A DNA stretch of 64,000 nucleotides from Trinickia caryophylli. GTDB taxonomy: Bacteria; Pseudomonadota; Gammaproteobacteria; Burkholderiales; Burkholderiaceae. The notes beneath the pieces are model-generated. The model did not search any database, was not told the origin of the DNA, and saw only the letters and a list, made by a program, of their open reading frames with translations. Positions 24,154-55,713 of the stretch are shown piece after piece (positions within the stretch are counted from its first letter, which is position 1; each line of letters begins with the position of its first letter). The DNA is taken from contig NZ_CP139971.1 in assembly GCF_034424545.1 (NCBI RefSeq), forward strand, positions 744,001 through 808,000. Direction: 5' to 3'. The translations under genes and the position numbers were made by a program.

Positions 24154-24719
24154 GTGTGCTCCGTCGAAAGCATCGAATATCGCTCATACCGGAATGTGCG
24201 CCGGCGAACGGAAACGGCTTTTATCCCCGTTGGCCCATCGAGTTAATCATCGATGGCAGGTAGAGACTAACAATAGAATTTTTATTCTACAAGCGGTTTC
24301 AGGGAAAACCACAGCCAGCGCTTGCGCATTCGGACTTATTCGACGTTAGCCCGTCTGTTCGCGCCATAATCCGCGATGCTTGATATGGAAACAGGGCCGG
24401 AGCTTAACGAAAGCGAAACAATAGCACTTTTGGGGCTCCGATCTCGACCATTTCAGATACCTGTGCAGTCGGATCATATGCAGACACGCATATTCACGCC
24501 TCGAAAACGATCCGCCATTTAAAAAGGATACGCAGATCCATTACATTTGTTTTGATCGAGATCAAATGCCCGGGGACGACGTTTTCACAGATAAACGAGC
24601 AATTCACCGTTGCAGCCGATGTAAACGTTCTCATCTGGATTACTGGCCGAATTGGCCATCCGATTCGGCCATCCGACTCGCCATTACCGCCGCGCACTTG
24701 CCTGGGTACCCCCTTTTAT
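24154..24719. other. Long gene-free, AT-richer stretch
   Basis: 566 bases between the start of the YodC-like gene and the end of the helicase gene. Base composition is lower in GC than the flanks. It carries one perfect FNR/Anr-type box (24552-24565). Short open frames are present but none has a ribosome-binding site or recognisable protein; a small RNA is possible. Confidence 0.55.
24552..24565. promoter_or_regulatory. FNR/Anr-type box TTGAT-N4-ATCAA
   Basis: TTGATCGAGATCAA is a perfect copy of the CRP/FNR-family oxygen-responsive consensus. The nearest protein start it could serve is the YodC-like gene about 400 bases away, so the target is unclear. Confidence 0.6.
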
Positions 24720-36530: not shown

Positions 36531-37483
36531 CCTCGACCGTCCAGACGTTGCGCGTCTCATCGCGCGGGCTCGGTCTGGCGGTCTATGTAAGCGGCCCGTG
36601 CGACGCGCCGCCTGTCGTATTCGTACACGGGTATCCGGACTCGGCGACGGTTTGGAACGCCGTGCGCAGCCGGCTCGACGCGCGCTTTCGTGTCATTGCA
36701 TACGACGTTTGCGGTGCCGGGCACTCCGACGCGCCCCGCGAGCGACGAGGCTATCGCCTCGAATGTCTCGCCCAGGATCTCATGGCCGTGGCGGAAGCGA
36801 CGTGCGGCACGCGCCCGTTTCATCTCGTCGGCCACGACTGGGGCTCGGTCCAGAGTTGGGAGGCCGTCACGGCGCCGGAACTGGCTGGGCGGATCGCCTC
36901 CTTCACGTCGATTTCCGGGCCCTGTCTCGACCATGCGCTGCTGTCGCTTCGCGAGCGGGAAGGCCGGCCGCGCCACGGACGCTGGAAGCAGATGCTCCGG
37001 TCCGCCTACATTCCGTTCTTTCATCTACCGTTGTTGCCCGAGGCGTTCTGGCGCAGCATCGGCGCGCGTGCGTGGCCATTTTGGCTTCGCCGGACCGAGC
37101 ATCTTCGTGTCGAAGCCGACCCGCTGCGCGTGCGCAACGCCGTGAACGGCCTCGAACTGTATCGCGCCAACTTTATCGAGCGCCTGCGGTTCCCGCGCCC
37201 ACGGCAAGCGCAGGCAGCCGTGCAATGGATCGTCCCCTTGCGCGATCATTACGTCGGCCCGGATCTCGCCACGAGCGGCGAGCGTTGGGTGCAGACGTAC
37301 GTGCGCGCGGAGCTCGATGCGGGCCACTGGGCGATCCTGAGCCACCCCGGCGACGTTGCCGACGCGATACGCCGGTTCGTCTCGCGCTGCGCGCAATCCG
37401 ATCCAAAGCGCTCGACGGTGCTGTCGAGGCACCCGGCACGAGCGGCGGCGCATCACCCGCCGATTTCGTCGAAGAGCCCGTAG
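36527..37483 (+). CDS. Alpha/beta hydrolase, epoxide-hydrolase-like
   Basis: A 318-residue alpha/beta-fold enzyme. FVHGYPDSATVWNAV is the oxyanion block and the nucleophile elbow is GHDWGSVQSW, with Asp as nucleophile as in epoxide hydrolases and haloalkane dehalogenases rather than Ser. The base histidine is in ELDAGHWAILSHP. It is the last gene of the four-gene operon and its 3' end overlaps the convergent LuxR-type regulator by 31 bases. Confidence 0.88.
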   Translation: MTSTVQTLRVSSRGLGLAVYVSGPCDAPPVVFVHGYPDSATVWNAVRSRLDARFRVIAYDVCGAGHSDAPRERRGYRLECLAQDLMAVAEATCGTRPFHLVGHDWGSVQSWEAVTAPELAGRIASFTSISGPCLDHALLSLREREGRPRHGRWKQMLRSAYIPFFHLPLLPEAFWRSIGARAWPFWLRRTEHLRVEADPLRVRNAVNGLELYRANFIERLRFPRPRQAQAAVQWIVPLRDHYVGPDLATSGERWVQTYVRAELDAGHWAILSHPGDVADAIRRFVSRCAQSDPKRSTVLSRHPARAAAHHPPISSKSP

Positions 37484-38097
37484 TGCAAGGCGTAGCGAAT
37501 CAGCGCGGCATCGTGTGGCAATTCCATTTTTTCGAGGATCCGCGTGCGATGCGTGCTCACCGTCTTCGGGCTGACGCCGAGAGCCTCGGCGATACGCGAG
37601 ACAGTCAGGCCGTCGACGATCAGACGAAATATCTGTGCCTCGCGGTTGGAAAGCCGTTCGTGCGGTAACGCGTCTAGCGGCTCGTCGAGCCGCCCCGCCA
37701 TGCATTCGGAGATCGCAAGCCCGACATACACGCCGCCGCCGGCGACGCTCTCGACGGCGGCAGCCAGTTCCGAACCTGCCCGCTCTTTCGTCAGATAGCC
37801 CGAAGCCCCTGCTCGGAGCGCCTGGATCGCGTACCGTTGCTCCGCATGCATGCTCGACACGAGGATTCGGAGCGCAGGCGCGTCCCGCCGCAATCGCCTG
37901 ATCAACTCGAAGCCGTTGCTGCCCGGCATCGATAGATCCAGCACGAGCACGTCCGCGGGCGTCGCAGTGGCGAGAGCGAGCGCGGACGCACCGTCGTGCG
38001 CTTCGGCCATCACGATCATCCTCCCCGTCGACTCCAACACCCGCCTTTGGCAATCTCGCAGCATGGCGTGATCGTCTGCAAGCAGCACTCGAATCAT
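37453..38097 (-). CDS. NarL/FixJ family response regulator (LuxR-type output)
   Basis: A 214-residue regulator. The receiver has LLADDHAMLRD, phospho-Asp in LVLDLSMPGSNGF and the lysine in YLTKERAG. The LuxR helix-turn-helix is LSNREAQIFRLIVDGLTVSRIAEALGVSPKTVSTHRTRI. No cognate kinase is adjacent; the hybrid kinase 9 kb away is a possible but unproven partner. It borders the stress cluster to its right and may take part in its control. Confidence 0.92.
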   Translation of the reverse strand: MIRVLLADDHAMLRDCQRRVLESTGRMIVMAEAHDGASALALATATPADVLVLDLSMPGSNGFELIRRLRRDAPALRILVSSMHAEQRYAIQALRAGASGYLTKERAGSELAAAVESVAGGGVYVGLAISECMAGRLDEPLDALPHERLSNREAQIFRLIVDGLTVSRIAEALGVSPKTVSTHRTRILEKMELPHDAALIRYALHYGLFDEIGG

Positions 38098-38534
38098 GGC
38101 CGGCCTCGCGCCAAAGACTTCAGCGCCCGCCATTCGGACGCGATTCGTCTTGGTCGCGAATTATCCTAGCGACACGAATCCCCGCTTTCCATGACATTTG
38201 CTCGCTTCGCTGCATATTGGCGAGCTCAATATTGGCAAGCCCAAGCGAGAATGCTATTTCGATGCCTGTTCTTGTTCTCTATATCGCGAAAGTCGATTGG
38301 CAACGTGCGGTCACGCTCAGATGCCTATCTTGCTTGTGCGCCATAGTTCAGATGATCGGAAGACTCGGATATGTCCTACGCAATCATGTCAGCCGGCCTA
38401 CAGCTTGACGGCATGTCCGCCGATTCCCGCATCCCGACGAATGCCCGAGACTTTCATTACGTTGCGGGAACGCGCAAAACCATCAATCAATCCTGCGTTT
38501 CCACTCGCATCCATTCCACCGAGGAGACAATCTG
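38098..38534. other. Gene-free stretch between divergently placed regulator and small gene
   Basis: 437 bases, less GC-rich than its flanks. It should hold the promoters of the response regulator (minus) and of the small gene at 38535 (plus). GAGGAGACA precedes the latter. No operator-like palindrome was recognised. Confidence 0.5.
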
Positions 38535-38820: not shown

Positions 38821-41289
38821 TCACGGCTGTTTCGCCCTTTTTACCCCATGCGGCACGTGGCCATTGCTGGAGGCCGCACGCAGCCGGTGACGCATCGTCA
38901 TCGACCGAATCGACGGCTGCACAAAGCTGCGCCGCGTCTGGGCAAACGATGCCAGTCTGGCGCACACGCGTCCATTCACGCTGTCGGCGGGGAAGCAGCC
39001 CTGCGCGTCCGCTACGCCGGCGGCTATCCCGGTCAGTACCTCGACGGCTTCGTCCACCGATTCGACGGCGTAGATGTGGAAGCGGCCAGCCGCGGCCGCC
39101 GCGACGACATCCTCGCGCAACATCAAATGCTTGATATTGGCGCGCGGAATGACGACGCCCTGGTCGCCGCCAAGCCCCCTCGCCTGACACAGGTCGAAGA
39201 ATCCTTCGATCTTCTCGTTGACGCCGCCGATCGCCTGCACGCTGCCGTATTGATCGATCGATCCCGTTACCGCCAGCGTTTGCCGGATCGGCACATCCGC
39301 CAGCGATGAAATCAGCGCGCACACTTCTGCAACCGACGCGCTATCGCCCTCGACTTCACCGTAGGTCTGCTCGAACGTCAGGCTCGCGGACAGACAAGGC
39401 GGCTGGCCGCTGCTGTAACGAGCGGTGAGAAACGAGGCGATCGTCATGACCGCTTTCGAATGAATCGCACCGCCGAGCCTGGCTTCGCGCTGGATATCGA
39501 CGACTTCGCCGTCTCCCAGGCGCGTGCGTGCCGTGATGCGCGCCGGCTGGCCGAACATGACGCCGCCCATCTGCGTGACCCAGAGCCCATTGACCTGCCC
39601 GCTTTTCGCACCCGACGTGTCGATCAGCACGGTGCCTCTCAACGTCTCTTCCTGCAAGCGGCGGCGGACGCGATCGGTACGCGCGCGCTGCGCGTCGACG
39701 GCCGCCTGCACGTCGGCATCGGTAACGACCTTGCCTCCACGCTGACGTGCCTGGAACTCGGCTTCGCGCAACAGATCGGCCAGGGAGCGCATATGCAGAG
39801 AGATCTTCTCGGCATCGCCGGCACTGCGCGCCTGCTGCTCGACCACGCGCATGACGGCGCCGCGATCGAGCGGAAGCAGGCCGTGGTGCTTGACGAGCGA
39901 TGCGACGAGACGCGCATAGCGCCCGTGGTTGGCCGCGTCGCGGCTCAGATCCTCCTCGAAATCGGCCGGCACCTTGAAAAGTTCGCCGAAATCCGGGTCC
40001 ATTTCATAGAGGAGGTAGTACAGCCAGCGTTCGCCGAACAGTACGACTTTCACGTCAAGAGGCACGGGCTCCGGCTCGAGCGAAACGGTACTGACCATAC
40101 TGAACATTTCGGCGAGCGACTCGATGCGTACTTCGTGACGCAAAAGCGCGCGCTTGAGCCCCTCCCAGGCGAACGGCTGCCGCAGCACCTTGTCGATCTC
40201 GAGCAGCAGATAGCCGCCATTGGCACGATGAAGATCGCCCGGCTTGATGAGACTGAAATCGGTCACCAGCGTGCCGAGCATCGCGCGATGCTCGACGCGT
40301 CCGACAAGGTTCTGATACGACGGAAAGTCCTGATAGACCACCGGCGCCCCCTGCCCTGCCTCGTGATCGAGCAGCACGTTCACCCGATAGCGCACGAATG
40401 CCGAGGCATCGGGAACCGGCTGACCATCGCTGTCGGGAAGCTTGCGAAACGCGTCGACATTGTCGAGAACGTCCACCCGCACCGCGCGCAGATACTCCGC
40501 GACGGCAGGCAGATCGTCGTACGCCTTCTCGAGCGCGTTCATCGAAGCGCCGACCGCCGACATCGCCATCTCGCGGTTCAGCGCGCGCAGCCGCTCCCGG
40601 CGCTCCTTGTGCCAGACCGGCACCTGATGCAGCAGTTTCTCGAGACGCTCCTTGAGCGAGGCGATCGCCTCTTCGAACGCCGTGCGCTTGTCGGCCGGCA
40701 GCGCATCGTAGTCCTTCTCGCTCATCGTCTCGCCGTCGCGCATCGGCATCAGCGTCAGACCGACGGGCGTCCGCACGAGTGCGACATCGTGCAATGCCGC
40801 GTCTTCTCCAAGTTCGGCGAATGCTTTTTCCTGACGAGAAGAAAACTCGGCATCGAGCTGCTCGGCGCGCGCGCGATAAGTCTCGCCCTCGAACGTAGCC
40901 GGGACGGCTACCTTCAGCTCTTCGACAAGCTCGTCCATATCCTGGCGCAGCTTCGTCGCACGGCCCGGAGGCAAGCGCAGCGCGCGCGGCTTGTGCGGGT
41001 GCGCGAAATCGTTCACGTAGCACCAGCCGTCGGGAGACGCCTGCGATTTCGCCCTGTCGGCAAGCAGCCTGGCGAGCATCGTTCGCTTGCCGGCCCCACT
41101 GCGGCCCAGCACAAAGAGGTTGTAACCGTCGTGCGTCATGCCTACGCCAAAGCGGATTGCCTCGACGGCGCGCGCTTGTCCAACGATCTCGTCCAGTTCG
41201 GGAAGATCGCTCGTCGTTTCGAAATCGAACTGCGCGGGATCGCATTTTCGACGTAACAGATCGGCGGATAAGCGAAGCGATGGCGTCAT
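38821..41289 (-). CDS. Lon-like ATP-dependent protease (LonB/COG1067-type)
   Basis: An 822-residue AAA+ protease. An N-terminal Lon-associated domain precedes Walker A FVLGRSGAGKRTMLARLL near residue 65, and the long insertion typical of this group (LKERLEKLLHQVPVW, helical) follows. The C-terminal serine protease domain has the Ser-Lys dyad: Ser in VEGDSASVAEV and Lys in GGVNEKIEGFF. A basic ~65-residue tail follows the protease domain. GAGGAGG ahead of the ATG at 41289 fixes the start. It is divergent from the GroEL unit, sharing a promoter region with two FNR/FixK-type boxes. It presumably removes damaged proteins under stress. Confidence 0.92.
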   Translation of the reverse strand: MTPSLRLSADLLRRKCDPAQFDFETTSDLPELDEIVGQARAVEAIRFGVGMTHDGYNLFVLGRSGAGKRTMLARLLADRAKSQASPDGWCYVNDFAHPHKPRALRLPPGRATKLRQDMDELVEELKVAVPATFEGETYRARAEQLDAEFSSRQEKAFAELGEDAALHDVALVRTPVGLTLMPMRDGETMSEKDYDALPADKRTAFEEAIASLKERLEKLLHQVPVWHKERRERLRALNREMAMSAVGASMNALEKAYDDLPAVAEYLRAVRVDVLDNVDAFRKLPDSDGQPVPDASAFVRYRVNVLLDHEAGQGAPVVYQDFPSYQNLVGRVEHRAMLGTLVTDFSLIKPGDLHRANGGYLLLEIDKVLRQPFAWEGLKRALLRHEVRIESLAEMFSMVSTVSLEPEPVPLDVKVVLFGERWLYYLLYEMDPDFGELFKVPADFEEDLSRDAANHGRYARLVASLVKHHGLLPLDRGAVMRVVEQQARSAGDAEKISLHMRSLADLLREAEFQARQRGGKVVTDADVQAAVDAQRARTDRVRRRLQEETLRGTVLIDTSGAKSGQVNGLWVTQMGGVMFGQPARITARTRLGDGEVVDIQREARLGGAIHSKAVMTIASFLTARYSSGQPPCLSASLTFEQTYGEVEGDSASVAEVCALISSLADVPIRQTLAVTGSIDQYGSVQAIGGVNEKIEGFFDLCQARGLGGDQGVVIPRANIKHLMLREDVVAAAAAGRFHIYAVESVDEAVEVLTGIAAGVADAQGCFPADSVNGRVCARLASFAQTRRSFVQPSIRSMTMRHRLRAASSNGHVPHGVKRAKQP

Positions 41290-41349
41290 CAGAACCTCCT
41301 CTGGATCTTGCAGGCGCCTCCTATCGTGCCCGACCATGCGAAACGGGCC

Positions 41350-41363
41350 TTGACCGGGGTCAA
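41350..41363. promoter_or_regulatory. FNR/FixK-type box 1, TTGACCGGGGTCAA
   Basis: A perfect 14-bp palindrome of the TTGAY-N4-RTCAA class, 61 bases upstream of the Lon-like start. It is followed by a 13-bp sequence (AAGTCCGCGGCGC) that recurs after the second box. Confidence 0.65.
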
Positions 41364-41394
41364 CGCAAGTCCGCGGCGCCGCCGCGCGCGGTTA

Positions 41395-41408
41395 TTGACA
41401 TTGGTCAA
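41395..41408. promoter_or_regulatory. FNR/FixK-type box 2, TTGACATTGGTCAA
   Basis: TTGAC-N4-GTCAA, centred 45 bases from box 1 and about 120 bases upstream of the gene at 41529. The repeated AAGTCCGCGGCGC follows at 41408-41420. The pair suits a CRP/FNR-family regulator acting on both divergent transcripts. Confidence 0.65.
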
Positions 41409-41528
41409 AGTCCGCGGCGCACGTCGTTCTTACGATGCATACGGGGCGCCCTGCGATAAGCGCGCGTTGCGCATGCCACTCCGGTATCTGCCTTCATCGG
41501 CATGCCCCGTCCGCGGGAGGATCTCGTC

Positions 41529-41945
41529 ATGAAGGACGCATACGAACGCCGTGCGCTGCTCGTGCATCTCGGCGTTGCGCTGCAAATGCTAAGCCGTATC
41601 GTCGAGTACGAGAAAAGCGACGAGACGATCGGCGAACTCCTCGCACGCGAGCCGCTGCTCGCAGACGTGCCTTTGCTCGAATACCTCTTCGATCGCATGA
41701 GCGTGCGTGAGCTCGGCTCGAACGTCCTTCATGCGTTTTGCCTCTGGCCCCGGCTGCTGCTCGACGACGAACTCGATCGAAACGCGCTGGCCGATCCGGT
41801 GCGCACGCATCTCTTCGCCGGTAATCCGCGCGGGTGGAATGCGTATCTTCAGGCCATGCAGCGCGAGGTGCAATGGTTCGGCGAAGGACTGCCGCTCGCG
41901 AACGGGCACGCATGGTCGGACGGTGCCGAGATACATCCAGTCTGA
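41529..41945 (+). CDS. Protein of unknown function preceding groEL
   Basis: A 138-residue soluble, mostly helical protein (LLVHLGVALQMLSRIVEYEK, ELLAREPLLADVPLLEYLFDRM, VLHAFCLWPRLLLDDELDR). It occupies the place where groES would be expected, 16 bases before groEL, but has no GroES motif. CGGGAGG precedes the ATG. Its fixed position suggests a role tied to the divergent chaperonin, for example a lid or adaptor; this is speculation. No family recognised. Confidence 0.75.
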   Translation: MKDAYERRALLVHLGVALQMLSRIVEYEKSDETIGELLAREPLLADVPLLEYLFDRMSVRELGSNVLHAFCLWPRLLLDDELDRNALADPVRTHLFAGNPRGWNAYLQAMQREVQWFGEGLPLANGHAWSDGAEIHPV

Positions 41946-41961: not shown

Positions 41962-43605
41962 ATGCCCGGAAAAACGCTGATCTTCCATCAGGACGCCAGG
42001 CAATTGCTCGTCAAGGGCGTCAACGCCCTCGCCGAAGCCGTCAAGGTCACGCTCGGGCCCGGCGGACGGAACGTGATCGTCGAACGGCCCGACGAGCGGC
42101 CGCTGGTGGCCAATTCCGGCGTCATCGTCGCCAACTCCGTCGATTTGATCGATCCCTTCGAGGAAATGGGTGCGCGCCTCTTGCGCGAAGTCGCGACGAA
42201 GACGAGCGAGGTAGCCGGGGACGGCACCACGACCGCCACCACGCTTGCGCAGGCCATCATCGTCGAAGGAATGAAGTGCGTGGCCGCCGGGCACGATCCG
42301 ATGGAACTCAAGCGTGCCATCGAGCAAGCCGGGCGCTGCGTGATCGACGAGTTGCGCCGGATCTCGCGTCCGTGCACCACCGTAGCCGAGATGCGCCAGA
42401 TCGCAACGATTTCCGCGAGCGGCGATGCCAGCATAGGCGAACTCGTCGCACAGGCCGTCGAACGGGTGGGCACGGACGGTGCGATCAGCATCGAAGACGG
42501 CTCCAAGCTCGACGACACCATCGAACTCGTGGAGGGCTCGCGGGTCGAGCGCGGCTATCTGTCGCCGTTGTTCGTCGAATCGGAGAGCCGGCAGGTGATT
42601 CTCGACGAACCGCGCATTCTCCTTGCCGACATGGCCATTTCCTCGCTCGCGAACCTGTTGCCGATTCTCGAAGCGGTGAGCGCAAGCACGAAACCGTTGC
42701 TGATCGTGGCGAACGAGGTGGAAGGCGAAGCGCTCGCCACGCTCGTCGTCAACCACCTGCGCGGAACGCTCAAGTCCTGCGCGATCCGCTCACCGGGTTT
42801 TGGCGACGCGCGCACGGCGCAGCTCGGGGATCTGGCGGCACTGACGGGCGCCACGGTCATTTCTCCGAAAGCAGGCCGTACGATCGAGCATGCGACCCTC
42901 GACGATCTCGGATCGGCTCGACGCGTGGAAATTACAAGCGACGCAACCATGATCATCGCCGGCAACGGCGAGAAGGCCTCTATCGAGCAACGCATCGCCA
43001 ATCTGCGCGCGCAGCTCGCCGCCGCGGGTAGCGACTACGATCGCGATCTGCTGAAGCGGCGCCTGGCCAAACTGGCTGGTGGCGTGGCCGTCATCGAGGT
43101 AGGCGCCGCCACCGAGGCCGCCCTCAAGGAGCGCCGCAACCGCTTCGACGACGCATTGCATGCCACGCGGGCGGCCGTGGAGGAAGGGATCGTCGCAGGA
43201 GGCGGCGTGGCGCTGCTGCGCGCACGCCGTGCGCTCGCACCGCTCGAACTCGGCACGGAAGTCGAGCGGCTCGGCGCGCGCATCGTGCACGACGCGCTCG
43301 CCTGGCCGTTGCGCCAGATCGCGCAAAACGCCGGGGCCGATGGGCAATCCGTGGTACATGCCGTGGCTGCAGCCGAAGGCGCTTACGGATACGACGCCAA
43401 ACGGGCCACGTACGGCGACATGATCGAATTCGGCATCGTGGACCCGGTGAAGGTCACGCGTTCGGCTCTGCAAAACGCGGTTTCGGTCGCCTCGCTGATG
43501 CTGACCACCGACTGCATGGTTGCCAACGCGCCGCTCCCCGGCGCGCCAGGCCACGCCCCGAGCGCGGGCGCGACATCGTACGATGGGCTCGCCGCCCGGT
43601 TTTGA
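41962..43605 (+). CDS. groEL: Divergent GroEL-type chaperonin (60 kDa)
   Basis: A 547-residue chaperonin. Nucleotide-site motifs are kept: VTLGPGGRNVIVE, VAGDGTTTATTLA and the C-terminal VEEGIVAGGGVALLRA with the conserved catalytic Asp in FDDALHATRAAVEEG. It differs from standard GroEL at many positions, ends in SYDGLAARF rather than a GGM repeat, and has no groES beside it. It is therefore a secondary, probably conditionally expressed paralogue. GGGAG lies nine bases before the ATG. It lies in an operon with the upstream unknown gene and probably the downstream kinase. Confidence 0.93.
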   Translation: MPGKTLIFHQDARQLLVKGVNALAEAVKVTLGPGGRNVIVERPDERPLVANSGVIVANSVDLIDPFEEMGARLLREVATKTSEVAGDGTTTATTLAQAIIVEGMKCVAAGHDPMELKRAIEQAGRCVIDELRRISRPCTTVAEMRQIATISASGDASIGELVAQAVERVGTDGAISIEDGSKLDDTIELVEGSRVERGYLSPLFVESESRQVILDEPRILLADMAISSLANLLPILEAVSASTKPLLIVANEVEGEALATLVVNHLRGTLKSCAIRSPGFGDARTAQLGDLAALTGATVISPKAGRTIEHATLDDLGSARRVEITSDATMIIAGNGEKASIEQRIANLRAQLAAAGSDYDRDLLKRRLAKLAGGVAVIEVGAATEAALKERRNRFDDALHATRAAVEEGIVAGGGVALLRARRALAPLELGTEVERLGARIVHDALAWPLRQIAQNAGADGQSVVHAVAAAEGAYGYDAKRATYGDMIEFGIVDPVKVTRSALQNAVSVASLMLTTDCMVANAPLPGAPGHAPSAGATSYDGLAARF

Positions 43606-43696: not shown

Positions 43697-45256
43697 ATGG
43701 ATCTCGCGATGCGACGCGCTGCCAGCTATCCGCATCCGGCCGGCGCCGTCAAACGCATCGAAACACACATTTCCGTCGTCTATCTCGCCGGCCGCTATGC
43801 CTACAAGATCGCGAAGCCCGTCAACCTCGGCTTCGTCGATTTCACGACCGCCCGCGAGCGGTGCCGCTGCGCATTTGCCGCCCTGCGGCTCAACCGGCGC
43901 CTCGCACCCGCGATCTACCTCGACGTAGTGCCCATACGCCGCATCGGCCGGACGTTTACGATGCGCCGCGCGCGTGGGGCATCCATCGTCGACCATGCGC
44001 TCAAAATGAGGCGCTTCGACGAGCGCGATGTCTTCTCGAATCTGCTCGCAAGCGGCCGGCTGCTTGCGAGCGATGTCGAGCATGCCGCCACGAGCATCGC
44101 GTCGTTTCATCGGCGCGCTTCGCGGCACGTGCCGGCTCATTCGCTGGGATCGGCGCAACGCGTGGTCACCGATATCGAAACGGTGCTTCACTCCCTCGTA
44201 CGCGAGGCACCGACGCTCGTCGATCACGATCTGCGCCACTGGTGCCGCGAGGAGACGGCCCGCCTTCGGCCGCACTTCGCGCAGCGCCGCGCGGCCGGAT
44301 TCGTGCGCGAGTGCCACGGCGATCTGCACCTCGAGAATATCGTGCGACTTCCCGGTGGCGTCGCCGCTTTCGATTGCATCGAGTTCGACGAGGGACTGCG
44401 GTGGACCGACGTCACGGCCGATATCGCGTTCACGGTCATGGATTTTCTTGCTTATGGGCATGGCGAGTTCGCGACGCGCTTCTTGAATCGCTGGCTCGGT
44501 GCGACCGGCGATTTCGACGGGCTGGCCGCGCTGCGGTTCTATATCGTCTATCGCGCGCTCGTGCGTGCGCTCGTCGCACGGCTCAAGGCACGGGATGACA
44601 CCGCCACCGGCACACGCTACCTGACGCTCGTCCGAAACGTTATCGCCGCGCCGCGCCCATTTCTCGTGCTCTGCCATGGCTATTCCGGGTCGGGCAAATC
44701 GGTGGCCGCGCAGGCGCTCGCACCGCTCGCAGGCGCGATACGCATCAGCAGCGACATGGAGCGCAAGCGCGAGAAAGGCACGCTGGCCGACGTGGAGTCA
44801 ACGCGGCTGCCGGCAGCCGCCTACACGCATCAGTCGATCGATTCGAATTACGTGCGACTGAGCGAAATCGCAAGCCGGCTGCTTGCAGCCGGATTACCGG
44901 TGATCGTGGACGCCAGCTTTCTCGCTCGCGAGCACCGCGCACACTTCATTTCGCTCGCGCAACGCGCTCGCGTAGCGCTTCTTATTGCGGACTTCAACGC
45001 CGACACGAACGTCATGGCATCGCGCCTGGCCCGACGGGCAAGCGATCGCAGCGAATCGTCGGACGCCGGCGCCGCGGTGCTGATGCAGCAAATGGCCCAG
45101 GCCGATGTCCTTACCCATGAAGAGCGTTCCCTGACTATCCCCTTCGATACCGACGTCGCACGCGAAGCGTTGGAACATCGAGACTACTGGTCACCGCTGC
45201 TCGATCGCCTGCCGCATGGCAGTTGGCTCTCGGGAACCCCGCATCGCGCGCAATAG
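43697..45256 (+). CDS. Two-domain phosphotransferase: aminoglycoside-phosphotransferase-like plus P-loop kinase
   Basis: About 519 residues. The N-terminal half is APH-like: ISVVYLAGRYAYKIAKPV, the Brenner-type loop ECHGDLHLENIV and FDCIEFDEGLRWTD for metal binding. The C-terminal half, from about residue 320, is a P-loop (AAA_33-like) kinase with CHGYSGSGKSVAAQ. This arrangement corresponds to the COG2187-COG0645 fusion of unknown substrate. The start is uncertain: ATG 43697 is taken, ATG 43616 would add 27 residues. It lies about 90 bases after groEL and belongs to the stress cluster by position. Confidence 0.85.
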   Translation: MDLAMRRAASYPHPAGAVKRIETHISVVYLAGRYAYKIAKPVNLGFVDFTTARERCRCAFAALRLNRRLAPAIYLDVVPIRRIGRTFTMRRARGASIVDHALKMRRFDERDVFSNLLASGRLLASDVEHAATSIASFHRRASRHVPAHSLGSAQRVVTDIETVLHSLVREAPTLVDHDLRHWCREETARLRPHFAQRRAAGFVRECHGDLHLENIVRLPGGVAAFDCIEFDEGLRWTDVTADIAFTVMDFLAYGHGEFATRFLNRWLGATGDFDGLAALRFYIVYRALVRALVARLKARDDTATGTRYLTLVRNVIAAPRPFLVLCHGYSGSGKSVAAQALAPLAGAIRISSDMERKREKGTLADVESTRLPAAAYTHQSIDSNYVRLSEIASRLLAAGLPVIVDASFLAREHRAHFISLAQRARVALLIADFNADTNVMASRLARRASDRSESSDAGAAVLMQQMAQADVLTHEERSLTIPFDTDVAREALEHRDYWSPLLDRLPHGSWLSGTPHRAQ

Positions 45257-45300
45257 CTTGCCGGGAAACGGGCATTTCCGACCGGGGTTCGCGCCTGAAT

Positions 45301-45314
45301 TCGTTTTAAAACGA
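45301..45314. promoter_or_regulatory. Perfect 14-bp palindrome TCGTTTTAAAACGA
   Basis: Lies 121 bases upstream of the trehalase start and 44 bases after the kinase stop. It could be an operator of the trehalase gene. No regulator can be assigned. Confidence 0.4.
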
Positions 45315-45435
45315 CGCAGCTAATTCACATCGTTCGCCAATCTGGCAAAATCGCCGTGCCCGCATAACGGGCGCGACTACGGACTACGAAAAACAGGAGA
45401 CCAAGCGCGATCATCCTTATCGATCAGGAGGAGCA

Positions 45436-47079
45436 ATGTTCGTATCGCCCGAATCCCGTTGTCCTCGTCCGCAATCTCCGTTCCTGCGCCAGCGCGTCAT
45501 TGCCCGGTTCGCCCGCGCGCTGATTCTCGTCGGCCTGACAGGCACCGCACTCGCCCGTGCCGACACGCTCGCCACATTGCCGCCACCGCCCTCGGAGCTT
45601 TACGGCGATCTCTTCGTGGCCGTGCAAACGCAGCAGATTTTCGACGATCAGAAAACGTTCGTCGACGCCGTGCCGAACAGCACCCCCGCCACGATCCTGC
45701 AACTTTATTCGCAGCAGAAAAACCAGCCGAACTTCGATCTGAAATCGTTTGTACTCGCGAATTTCACGTTGCCGACCGAACCGGTGATCACCCCGCCAGC
45801 CGGACAGACGCTGCGCGAGCATATCGACTGGCTCTGGCCCAAGCTCACGCGCACGACGACGACCGCCCCACCCTACAGTTCGCTCATCCCGTTGCCGAAG
45901 CCTTACGTCGTTCCGGGCGGACGGTTCCGCGAAGGTTATTACTGGGACACCTACTTCACGATGCTCGGCCTGCAGGAGTCCGGGCGGGAGGATCTCGTCG
46001 ACAACATGCTCGACGATTTCGCCTACGAAATCGACCAGTTCGGCCATATTCCCAACGGCAATCGCACGTATTACCTGAGCCGTTCGCAGCCGCCGTTTTT
46101 TGCGCAGATGGTTACGCTCGCAGCGGACAAGGAAGGGCCGCGCGTGTATCAGAAGTACCTGCCGCAGTTGCGCAAGGAATATGCGTACTGGATGCGCGGC
46201 GAAACGACGACGGCGCGCGGGCAGGCGATGCGAAACGTCGTGGTGCTGCCCGACGGCACCGTACTCAACCGCTACTGGGACGAGCGCGATACGCCGCGCG
46301 ACGAGTCGTATCTCGAGGACGTCAAGACGGCGCAGCTCGTTCCCTCCAGGCCCGCCAACGAGGTATATCGCGATTTGCGTGCCGCGGCTGAATCGGGGTG
46401 GGACTTCAGTTCGCGCTGGTTCGGCGACAACGCCACCCTCGCGACGATCCGCACGACGTCGATCGTACCGGTCGACCTGAACAGCCTGCTCTTCGGGCTC
46501 GAACTGACGATCGTGAAGGGCTGCGGCGTCGCGCGCGATATCGGCTGCGTGACCGAGTTCATCGGGCGCGCGAAGCGCCGGGCCGAAGGGATCAATCGCT
46601 ATCTCTGGAATCGCAACGGCTATTACGGCGACTACGATTGGCAACTCGGCAAACCGCGAGACAACATTTCGGTTGCCGCCGTCTATCCGATCTTCTTCGG
46701 AACCGCCTGGCCGGGCCGCGCGGAACGCACGCTGACCGCCGTACGCGGCGCGTTGCTCAAAGAACGCGGGCTCGCGACAACGACATACCAGACCGGACAG
46801 CAATGGGATGCGCCGAACGGCTGGGCACCATTGCACTGGCTGGCCGTCGAAAGCGCGCGCCGATACGGCCGAGCCGATCTCGCGAGAGACATCGGCACGC
46901 GTTTTCTCGCCGACGTCAAACAAGTCTATGCGTCCGACCAGAAACTCGTCGAGAAGTACGTGGTGGAAGGGCCGAACGCTGGTGGAGGCGGCGGCGGCGA
47001 ATACCCGCTGCAAGACGGCTTCGGATGGACCAACGGCGTGACGCTCAAGCTGCTCGACCTGTACGCGCCGGGCGAATGA
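45436..47079 (+). CDS. treA: Periplasmic alpha,alpha-trehalase (GH37)
   Basis: A 547-residue exported glycoside hydrolase that splits trehalose to two glucose molecules. The N-terminus has a basic start and a hydrophobic segment ([15 protein letters not shown]) with an AxA cleavage site. Trehalase signature 1 appears as [15 protein letters not shown] and signature 2 as [13 protein letters not shown]; the glycine run before [14 protein letters not shown] is the family's C-terminal block. Trehalose is a stress solute, which fits the surrounding chaperone cluster. A terminator follows 9 bases after the stop. Confidence 0.95.

Positions 47080-53400: not shown

Positions 53401-55713
<2,313 letters not shown>

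Follow-up and report, generated by a model that had tools for sequence, protein, structure and literature searches.

Twin FNR-type boxes predicted to activate a LonC-type protease gene and a second groEL from back-to-back promoters in Trinickia caryophylli

Two perfect FNR-type boxes lie between divergent genes in the 64,000-nucleotide stretch of the Trinickia caryophylli genome that was analysed here (hereafter the window). On one side is lonC, encoding a LonC-type protease, and on the other is a 138-aa ORF followed by a second groEL, groEL2. Judging from sequence, lonC and the 138-aa ORF/groEL2 pair are very probably activated at low oxygen by an FNR/Anr-type regulator, acting from two back-to-back class II promoters. 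The observations that carry this reading are the boxes themselves, their -10 hexamers, the same geometry across the genome, conservation in sister species, cluster cysteines in the candidate regulators and box neighbours of a low-oxygen type. The features of the region are as follows.

38821-41289, minus strand: lonC, a LonC-type AAA+/S16 protease of 822 aa (Pfam AAA_32, LonB_AAA-LID, LonC_helical, Lon_C)
41323-41328, minus strand: -10-like hexamer CACGAT on the lonC side, 21 nt from box 1
41350-41363, no strand: box 1, a palindrome of FNR type (TTGACCGGGGTCAA), taken to be the class II site for lonC
41367-41379, plus strand: first copy of the 13-mer AAGTCCGCGGCGC, probably incidental
41395-41408, no strand: box 2, a palindrome of FNR type (TTGACATTGGTCAA), taken to be the class II site for the 138-aa ORF and groEL2
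41408-41420, plus strand: second copy of the 13-mer AAGTCCGCGGCGC, sharing the last A of box 2, probably incidental
41431-41436, plus strand: -10-like hexamer TACGAT on the 138-aa ORF side, 22 nt from box 2
41529-41945, plus strand: 138-aa ORF with no Pfam or NCBIfam match, read as the conserved partner of box 2
41962-43605, plus strand: groEL2, the second GroEL, 547 aa, 16 nt after the 138-aa ORF and with no groES beside it

FNR-type boxes in the window and across the genome

A sequence-only reading of this DNA had placed twin FNR/FixK-type boxes 45 bases apart in a divergent Lon-like/GroEL promoter. Both boxes are where it put them, 45 bp apart from start to start, and both are perfect TTGAY-N4-RTCAA palindromes. 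The protease is of LonC type, and the earlier reading overlooked the 138-aa ORF that separates box 2 from groEL2. The window contains 4 matches to TTGAYN4RTCAA, compared to a mean of 0.12 in 100 shuffles, none of which (0/100) reached 4. The two further perfect boxes are located at 24552-24565 and 54163-54176, the latter within a called ORF.

The genome-wide search that the same reading had proposed returned 52 sites in 6.59 Mb (two contigs), compared to 4 for the pattern read backwards as a control. We fetched and examined 50 of these 52 sites, and 47 of the 50 were outside the genes called by a simple codon-usage gene caller. The 3 sites inside called genes include one (L152) that is just within a called start, possibly a wrong one, and the window's own site at 54163. 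Boxes were found on both contigs and were more closely packed at C2:0.96-1.06 Mb.

Promoter geometry at the twin boxes

We aligned by box the 57 box-to-gene directions in which a box lies at most 350 nt from a gene, the window and L002 being left out of this set. In 37 of the 57 directions the pattern xAxxxT followed the box at a distance of 21 nt (17 cases), 22 nt (19 cases) or 23 nt (2 cases), compared to 1-10 cases in each of the other 3-nt windows. This box-to--10 spacing is that of class II FNR geometry, where the centre of the box is near -41.5. The twin promoter, itself outside the 57-direction set, fits the genome-wide peak, with -10 hexamers at 21 and 22 nt. Since the hexamer belonging to box 1 is on the minus strand and that belonging to box 2 is on the plus strand, each box seems to serve its own side, box 1 serving lonC, and box 2 the 138-aa ORF and then groEL2. 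Transcription is predicted to start near 41316 (minus strand, lonC side) and near 41443 (plus strand, 138-aa ORF side). The lonC start at 41289 was picked by eye for its Shine-Dalgarno-like AGGAGG; a longer LonC starting at 41337 was rejected, as it would begin upstream of the inferred transcription start. The available passages on H. seropedicae fnr1 describe an Fnr site centred at -42 (PMC5934665).

Under the model that we favor, the intergenic region would consist of two back-to-back class II promoters, one per box, and an FNR/Anr-type dimer would activate each promoter from its own box, centred ~41 bp upstream of the transcription start. With falling oxygen, the FNR-like proteins L117 and/or L118 would assemble an iron-sulfur cluster and then bind the boxes; at box 1 the bound regulator would recruit RNA polymerase to lonC, while at box 2 it would recruit polymerase to the 138-aa ORF and groEL2. 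What this model predicts is binding at the boxes, the two start sites, a shared transcript for the 138-aa ORF and groEL2, and induction at low oxygen; the twin promoter specifies the start sites and the regulator closely enough for quick testing.

The 13-bp repeat between the boxes

The same 13-bp sequence had been said to follow each box, the two units together forming a duplicated module. Two exact copies of AAGTCCGCGGCGC are indeed present, but their distances from the box starts are unequal (17 nt for box 1, 13 nt for box 2), and the second copy overlaps its box. Because the register differs by 4 nt, box and copy do not form a clean duplicated module. Repeats of at least 12 nt occurred in 3 of 265 tiles of the window, while an exact repeat of at least 13 nt arose in just 2 of 1000 first-order simulations of the 241-nt twin-box stretch, a rarity that argues for a box plus 13-mer unit bound by an additional factor. 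Besides the unequal register, such a unit has against it that no copy of the 13-mer was found in the twin-box spacers of G001 and G002, two species of the same genus, and that its core AGTCCGCGGCGC is not enriched in the genome (8 sites, compared to 15 for the reversed control). We therefore rejected the 13-mer as a functional module, consider the involvement of an additional factor very improbable and regard the repeat as probably incidental.

Conservation of the twin boxes in related genomes

Twin boxes were found in 3 of 11 genomes of the genus. In G001, whose LonC is 73% identical, the pair reads TTGATCGTCGTCAA and TTGATGCCGATCAA; the boxes are again 45 bp apart, the counterpart of box 1 (TTGATCGTCGTCAA) occupies the same place as in the window, and the spacer has changed. 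TACGAT stands 22 nt past box 2 in this species, and ATCGTG is retained on the lonC side. No groEL adjoins its twin boxes, and its groEL2 is ~16 kb away. In G002 the pair is likewise kept at 45 bp with a changed spacer, ahead of a homologue of the 138-aa ORF; a 178-aa gene replaces lonC across the boxes and there is no groEL beside the pair. Among the three genomes of the genus with the pair, only that of the window has LonC facing GroEL across it. As G001 and G002 keep their twin boxes without an adjoining groEL, GroEL was rejected as the constant partner of box 2, and the 138-aa ORF is, as far as these sequences tell, the conserved one.

The 178-aa gene on the far side of the twin boxes in G002 belongs to a family with no Pfam match (L145:846-1382, L172:9259-9795 and L171:1723-2259). 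One member of this family adjoins a box in the genome of the window, and another is the neighbor of lonC in G001.

Box pairs with 30-32 nt between the boxes were present in 8 of 299 family genomes, at nine places, 6 of which are between divergent genes. Six places are outside the genus: three (L173, L174 and L175) are flanked by divergent called genes, some of which are USP-like by eye, and three (L176, L177 and L178) are not clearly between divergent genes. The pairs at L173, L174 and L175 belong to another genus and stand 45-46 bp apart between divergent genes other than those of the window. A spacing of 45-46 bp between boxes may be a design that recurs. At L218 and L250, also in another genus, the twin boxes stand 80 bp apart, and the divergent gene at L218 is Hsp20-like by eye.

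Candidate regulators and the nature of the signal

A search of the genome with HTH_Crp_2 returned 20 matches, 8 of them above the cut-off. L117 and L118 each contain a C-X2-C-X5-C motif whose third cysteine is followed, 93 residues later, by a fourth; E. coli FNR has this spacing. L117 matches the FNR structure 5cvr at 6.8e-59 and passes the NCBIfam Fnr model (248.2, cut-off 228), while L118 scores 208.2, below that cut-off. L117 is divergent from a USP gene, and a box occupies the space between the two.

From the sequence of a box alone, FNR cannot be told apart from Dnr/Nnr- or FixK-like regulators. The boxes might be read mainly by a CRP/FNR protein without a cluster, either Dnr/Nnr-like or FixK-like under FixLJ, in which case the signal would be NO or a kinase cascade. 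A candidate is L119, a third CRP/FNR protein, which lacks the N-terminal cysteine cluster. Its neighbors are hemN and an Rrf2 regulator whose scores with NsrR and RirA stay under the respective cut-offs. In addition, the passages available describe low-oxygen activation of fixK by FixLJ in B. dolosa (PMC5234846). However, L119 had no match among specific NO-sensor models, and L117 and L118 both retain the cluster cysteines; we consider this alternative improbable. For the FNR/Anr-type reading, oxygen is favored over NO as the signal, while L119 keeps another input open.

Genes adjacent to the boxes

From 58 listed box-adjacent genes, 27 were picked by eye for a Pfam scan. The scanned neighbors included USP (three loci) and Hsp20, together with CBS (three genes), BON (two), PfkB and acetate kinase. 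Further neighbors were an anaerobic ribonucleotide reductase (NRDD), a cytochrome c, a P-type ATPase with a hemerythrin domain and S30AE; two amino acid permeases and a fatty acid desaturase were less telling, and 5 of the 27 had no Pfam match. As a set, these genes resemble those of the Burkholderia low-oxygen (Anr/lxa) response. The lxa locus is one contiguous cluster of about 50 genes; the 50 boxes examined here are spread over both contigs.

The comparison was made with the low-oxygen response of B. cenocepacia as described in available passages (PMC6127331, PMC3759415). As far as the excerpts on its lxa locus and Anr1/Anr2 go (PMC9104464, PMC6127331, PMC3759415), the same kinds of gene are involved as near the boxes here (USP, Hsp20, BON-like and phosphofructokinase-like), and the Anr/FNR paralogues are likewise two in number, one of them next to a USP gene; in contrast, these excerpts mention neither a groEL2-lineage GroEL nor LonC. 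Passages on strain H111 report that deleting both anr genes abolishes anoxic survival, and that a USP gene lies upstream of anr2 (PMC9104464). In H. seropedicae, the class II promoters of Fnr1 are similar in having the box at -42, in the presence of several Fnr paralogues and in the USP genes that are among the strongest targets; they differ in that the main text, to the extent available, contains no groEL or chaperone term and describes no tandem boxes at co-activated promoters (PMC5934665). The FixLJ-FixK system of the Burkholderia cepacia complex similarly shows low-oxygen induction of the BCAM0049 homologue (fixK/anr2), but neither groEL nor chaperon occurs in the portion of that main text at hand (PMC5234846).

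Heat-shock control as an alternative

GroEL and Lon-type proteases are classical heat-shock products, and the module could in principle be a heat-shock unit under sigma-32 or HrcA in which the boxes play little part. The sequence-only reading had seen no CIRCE element, and we found none near the twin boxes, where the best match had 8 mismatches. Allowing at most 3 mismatches, CIRCE was found at 2 sites in the genome, both perfect and one of them just ahead of the main groES, compared to 4 sites for the reversed control. The region of the main groES also contains CTTGAA-N13-GTCCATAT in the groES direction, matching 11 of 13 sigma-32-like positions, a score reached by 4 of 100 shuffles of the twin region. 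In contrast, the best sigma-32-like score in the twin region was 9 of 13, the commonest value among shuffles and exceeded in 15 of 100. Heat-shock control was rejected at the twin boxes, as neither CIRCE nor a sigma-32-like site is above chance there. B. cenocepacia raises many chaperones together in micro-oxia, as reported in the passages available, which is a point in favor of a heat-shock unit, and those passages have ordinary GroEL and GroES of H111 rising as well (PMC3759415), so that a low-oxygen rise in chaperonin need not go through FNR. Nonetheless, with the perfect CIRCE and the better sigma-32-like site both at the main groESL, we give heat-shock control of this module almost no weight. 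The earlier proposal of a low-oxygen or NO response through a CRP/FNR activator rather than through heat shock stands as regards the box set, its geometry, the regulators, the -10 hexamers and the absence of above-chance CIRCE or sigma-32 sites, with the signal narrowed in favor of oxygen.

A separate GroEL lineage with an altered ATP pocket

The genome encodes two GroELs. groEL2 is 54% identical to the main GroEL over 525 residues and passes the curated GroEL model TIGR02348 (673.4, cut-off 582.1). The canonical groESL of this genome (C1:1.117 Mb), which is of the CIRCE/HrcA type, has a groES, a CIRCE, a GGM tail and K51/D52, none of which is found in groEL2. In the 299 family genomes, 20 GroELs, including the window's own, were 65-100% identical to groEL2, and the next listed were at most 57% identical. 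We placed these 20 in a tree together with 7 members from named plasmids (Paraburkholderia aromaticivorans, P. caribensis, Paraburkholderia sp. PGU19, Burkholderia savannae and three Cupriavidus) and 9 other GroELs. The 27 groEL2 members formed a clade with support of 100/100, separate from the 9 others; by sequence, groEL2 belongs to a separate GroEL lineage. No groES was found among the called neighbors of the 20 groEL2 loci with a caller that can miss small genes, as it did in two controls.

TTGAN6TCAA was present at most 400 nt upstream of 11 of the 20 groEL2 loci, compared to 0 of 10 control GroELs, and three more loci, that of the window included, have a box at 567, 685 or 1141 nt upstream. 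The remaining six, all in genera g25 and g3, had no box in the flank searched. Five of the 7 plasmid loci have a box within 700 nt, a count that is possibly not independent of the genome set; the box of Cupriavidus sp. USMAHM13 groEL2 reads TTGAGGCAAATCAA. Among 25 further GroELs of the K51/D52 type, none had a box within 500 nt.

In E. coli GroEL, K51 and D52 are important for the handling of ATP. In the ATP pocket of groEL2 this canonical pair is replaced by N51/S52 (K51N/D52S), as it is in 27 of 27 clade members, while T30-P33, D87-T91, D398 and D495 are kept in the clade; in the remaining 9 GroELs of the tree, positions 51/52 are KD. N51/S52 also occurred in 3 of 39 and 1 of 29 GroELs of two wider samples (L219, L223, L232 and L293, all of the same order). 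A box was present at -82 in L219, and none within 500 nt in L223, L232 and L293.

Chaperonins are usually regarded as heat-shock or housekeeping genes. We tentatively propose, as a possibility somewhat short of an even chance, that groEL2 is a low-oxygen chaperonin of the Burkholderiaceae, a GroEL without an adjacent groES that was rewired to FNR promoters, in which K51N/D52S would bring slow ATP turnover or client holding, suited to energy-poor anoxia, and which in this genome would be made together with LonC as an anoxic fold-or-degrade module apart from heat shock. What GroEL2 does differently is a more interesting question than its activation. If true, a separate GroEL lineage with FNR promoters and an altered ATP site would provide a handle on protein upkeep during the anoxic survival of aerobes, and would help to explain why some genomes have several GroELs. 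Bradyrhizobium groESL3, under NifA, is another spare chaperonin tied to low oxygen, but it differs in having a groES and in the use of sigma-54 by NifA.

Downstream of groEL2 are an AAA_33 kinase-like gene and a trehalase (43697-47079).

The 138-aa ORF and LonC relatives

Homologues of the 138-aa ORF were found in 75 of 299 family genomes, and a scan of the family against Pfam and NCBIfam returned no domain match. TTGAN6TCAA was located at most 400 nt upstream in 11 of the 30 fetched loci; two homologues within the genus itself (L188 and L189) had no box upstream. In both G200 and G271, a groEL2 immediately precedes the homologue.

The lonC product has AAA_32, LonC_helical and S16 domains in order, with its catalytic residues read by eye. 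Its best structure match is 4fwd (E 1e-87, residues 20-755 of 822). It resembles the LonC proteins of thermophiles (PDB 4fwd and relatives, named TTC1975 peptidase or endopeptidase La) in sequence span and in the LonC_helical domain, but differs in having a GxxGxGK loop that looks intact by eye. At 80 LonC loci from named genomes, exact boxes numbered 6 in 32.6 kb of upstream sequence compared to 17 in the other 812 kb, an 8.8-fold enrichment (p = 1.9e-4) whose ratio is inflated by a mostly coding background; 74 of the 80 loci have no exact box. The LonC genes of two further genomes of the genus (G005 and G008) had no upstream box at up to 1 mismatch. On one Cupriavidus plasmid, a LonC relative (43.5%) and groEL2 are ~15 kb apart. 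The stretch L276, from the plasmid of Cupriavidus sp. USMAHM13, brings together groEL2, a LonC relative, Hsp20, CBS proteins and a formate dehydrogenase. In the window, a LuxR-type response regulator is located at 37453-38133, on the far side of lonC.
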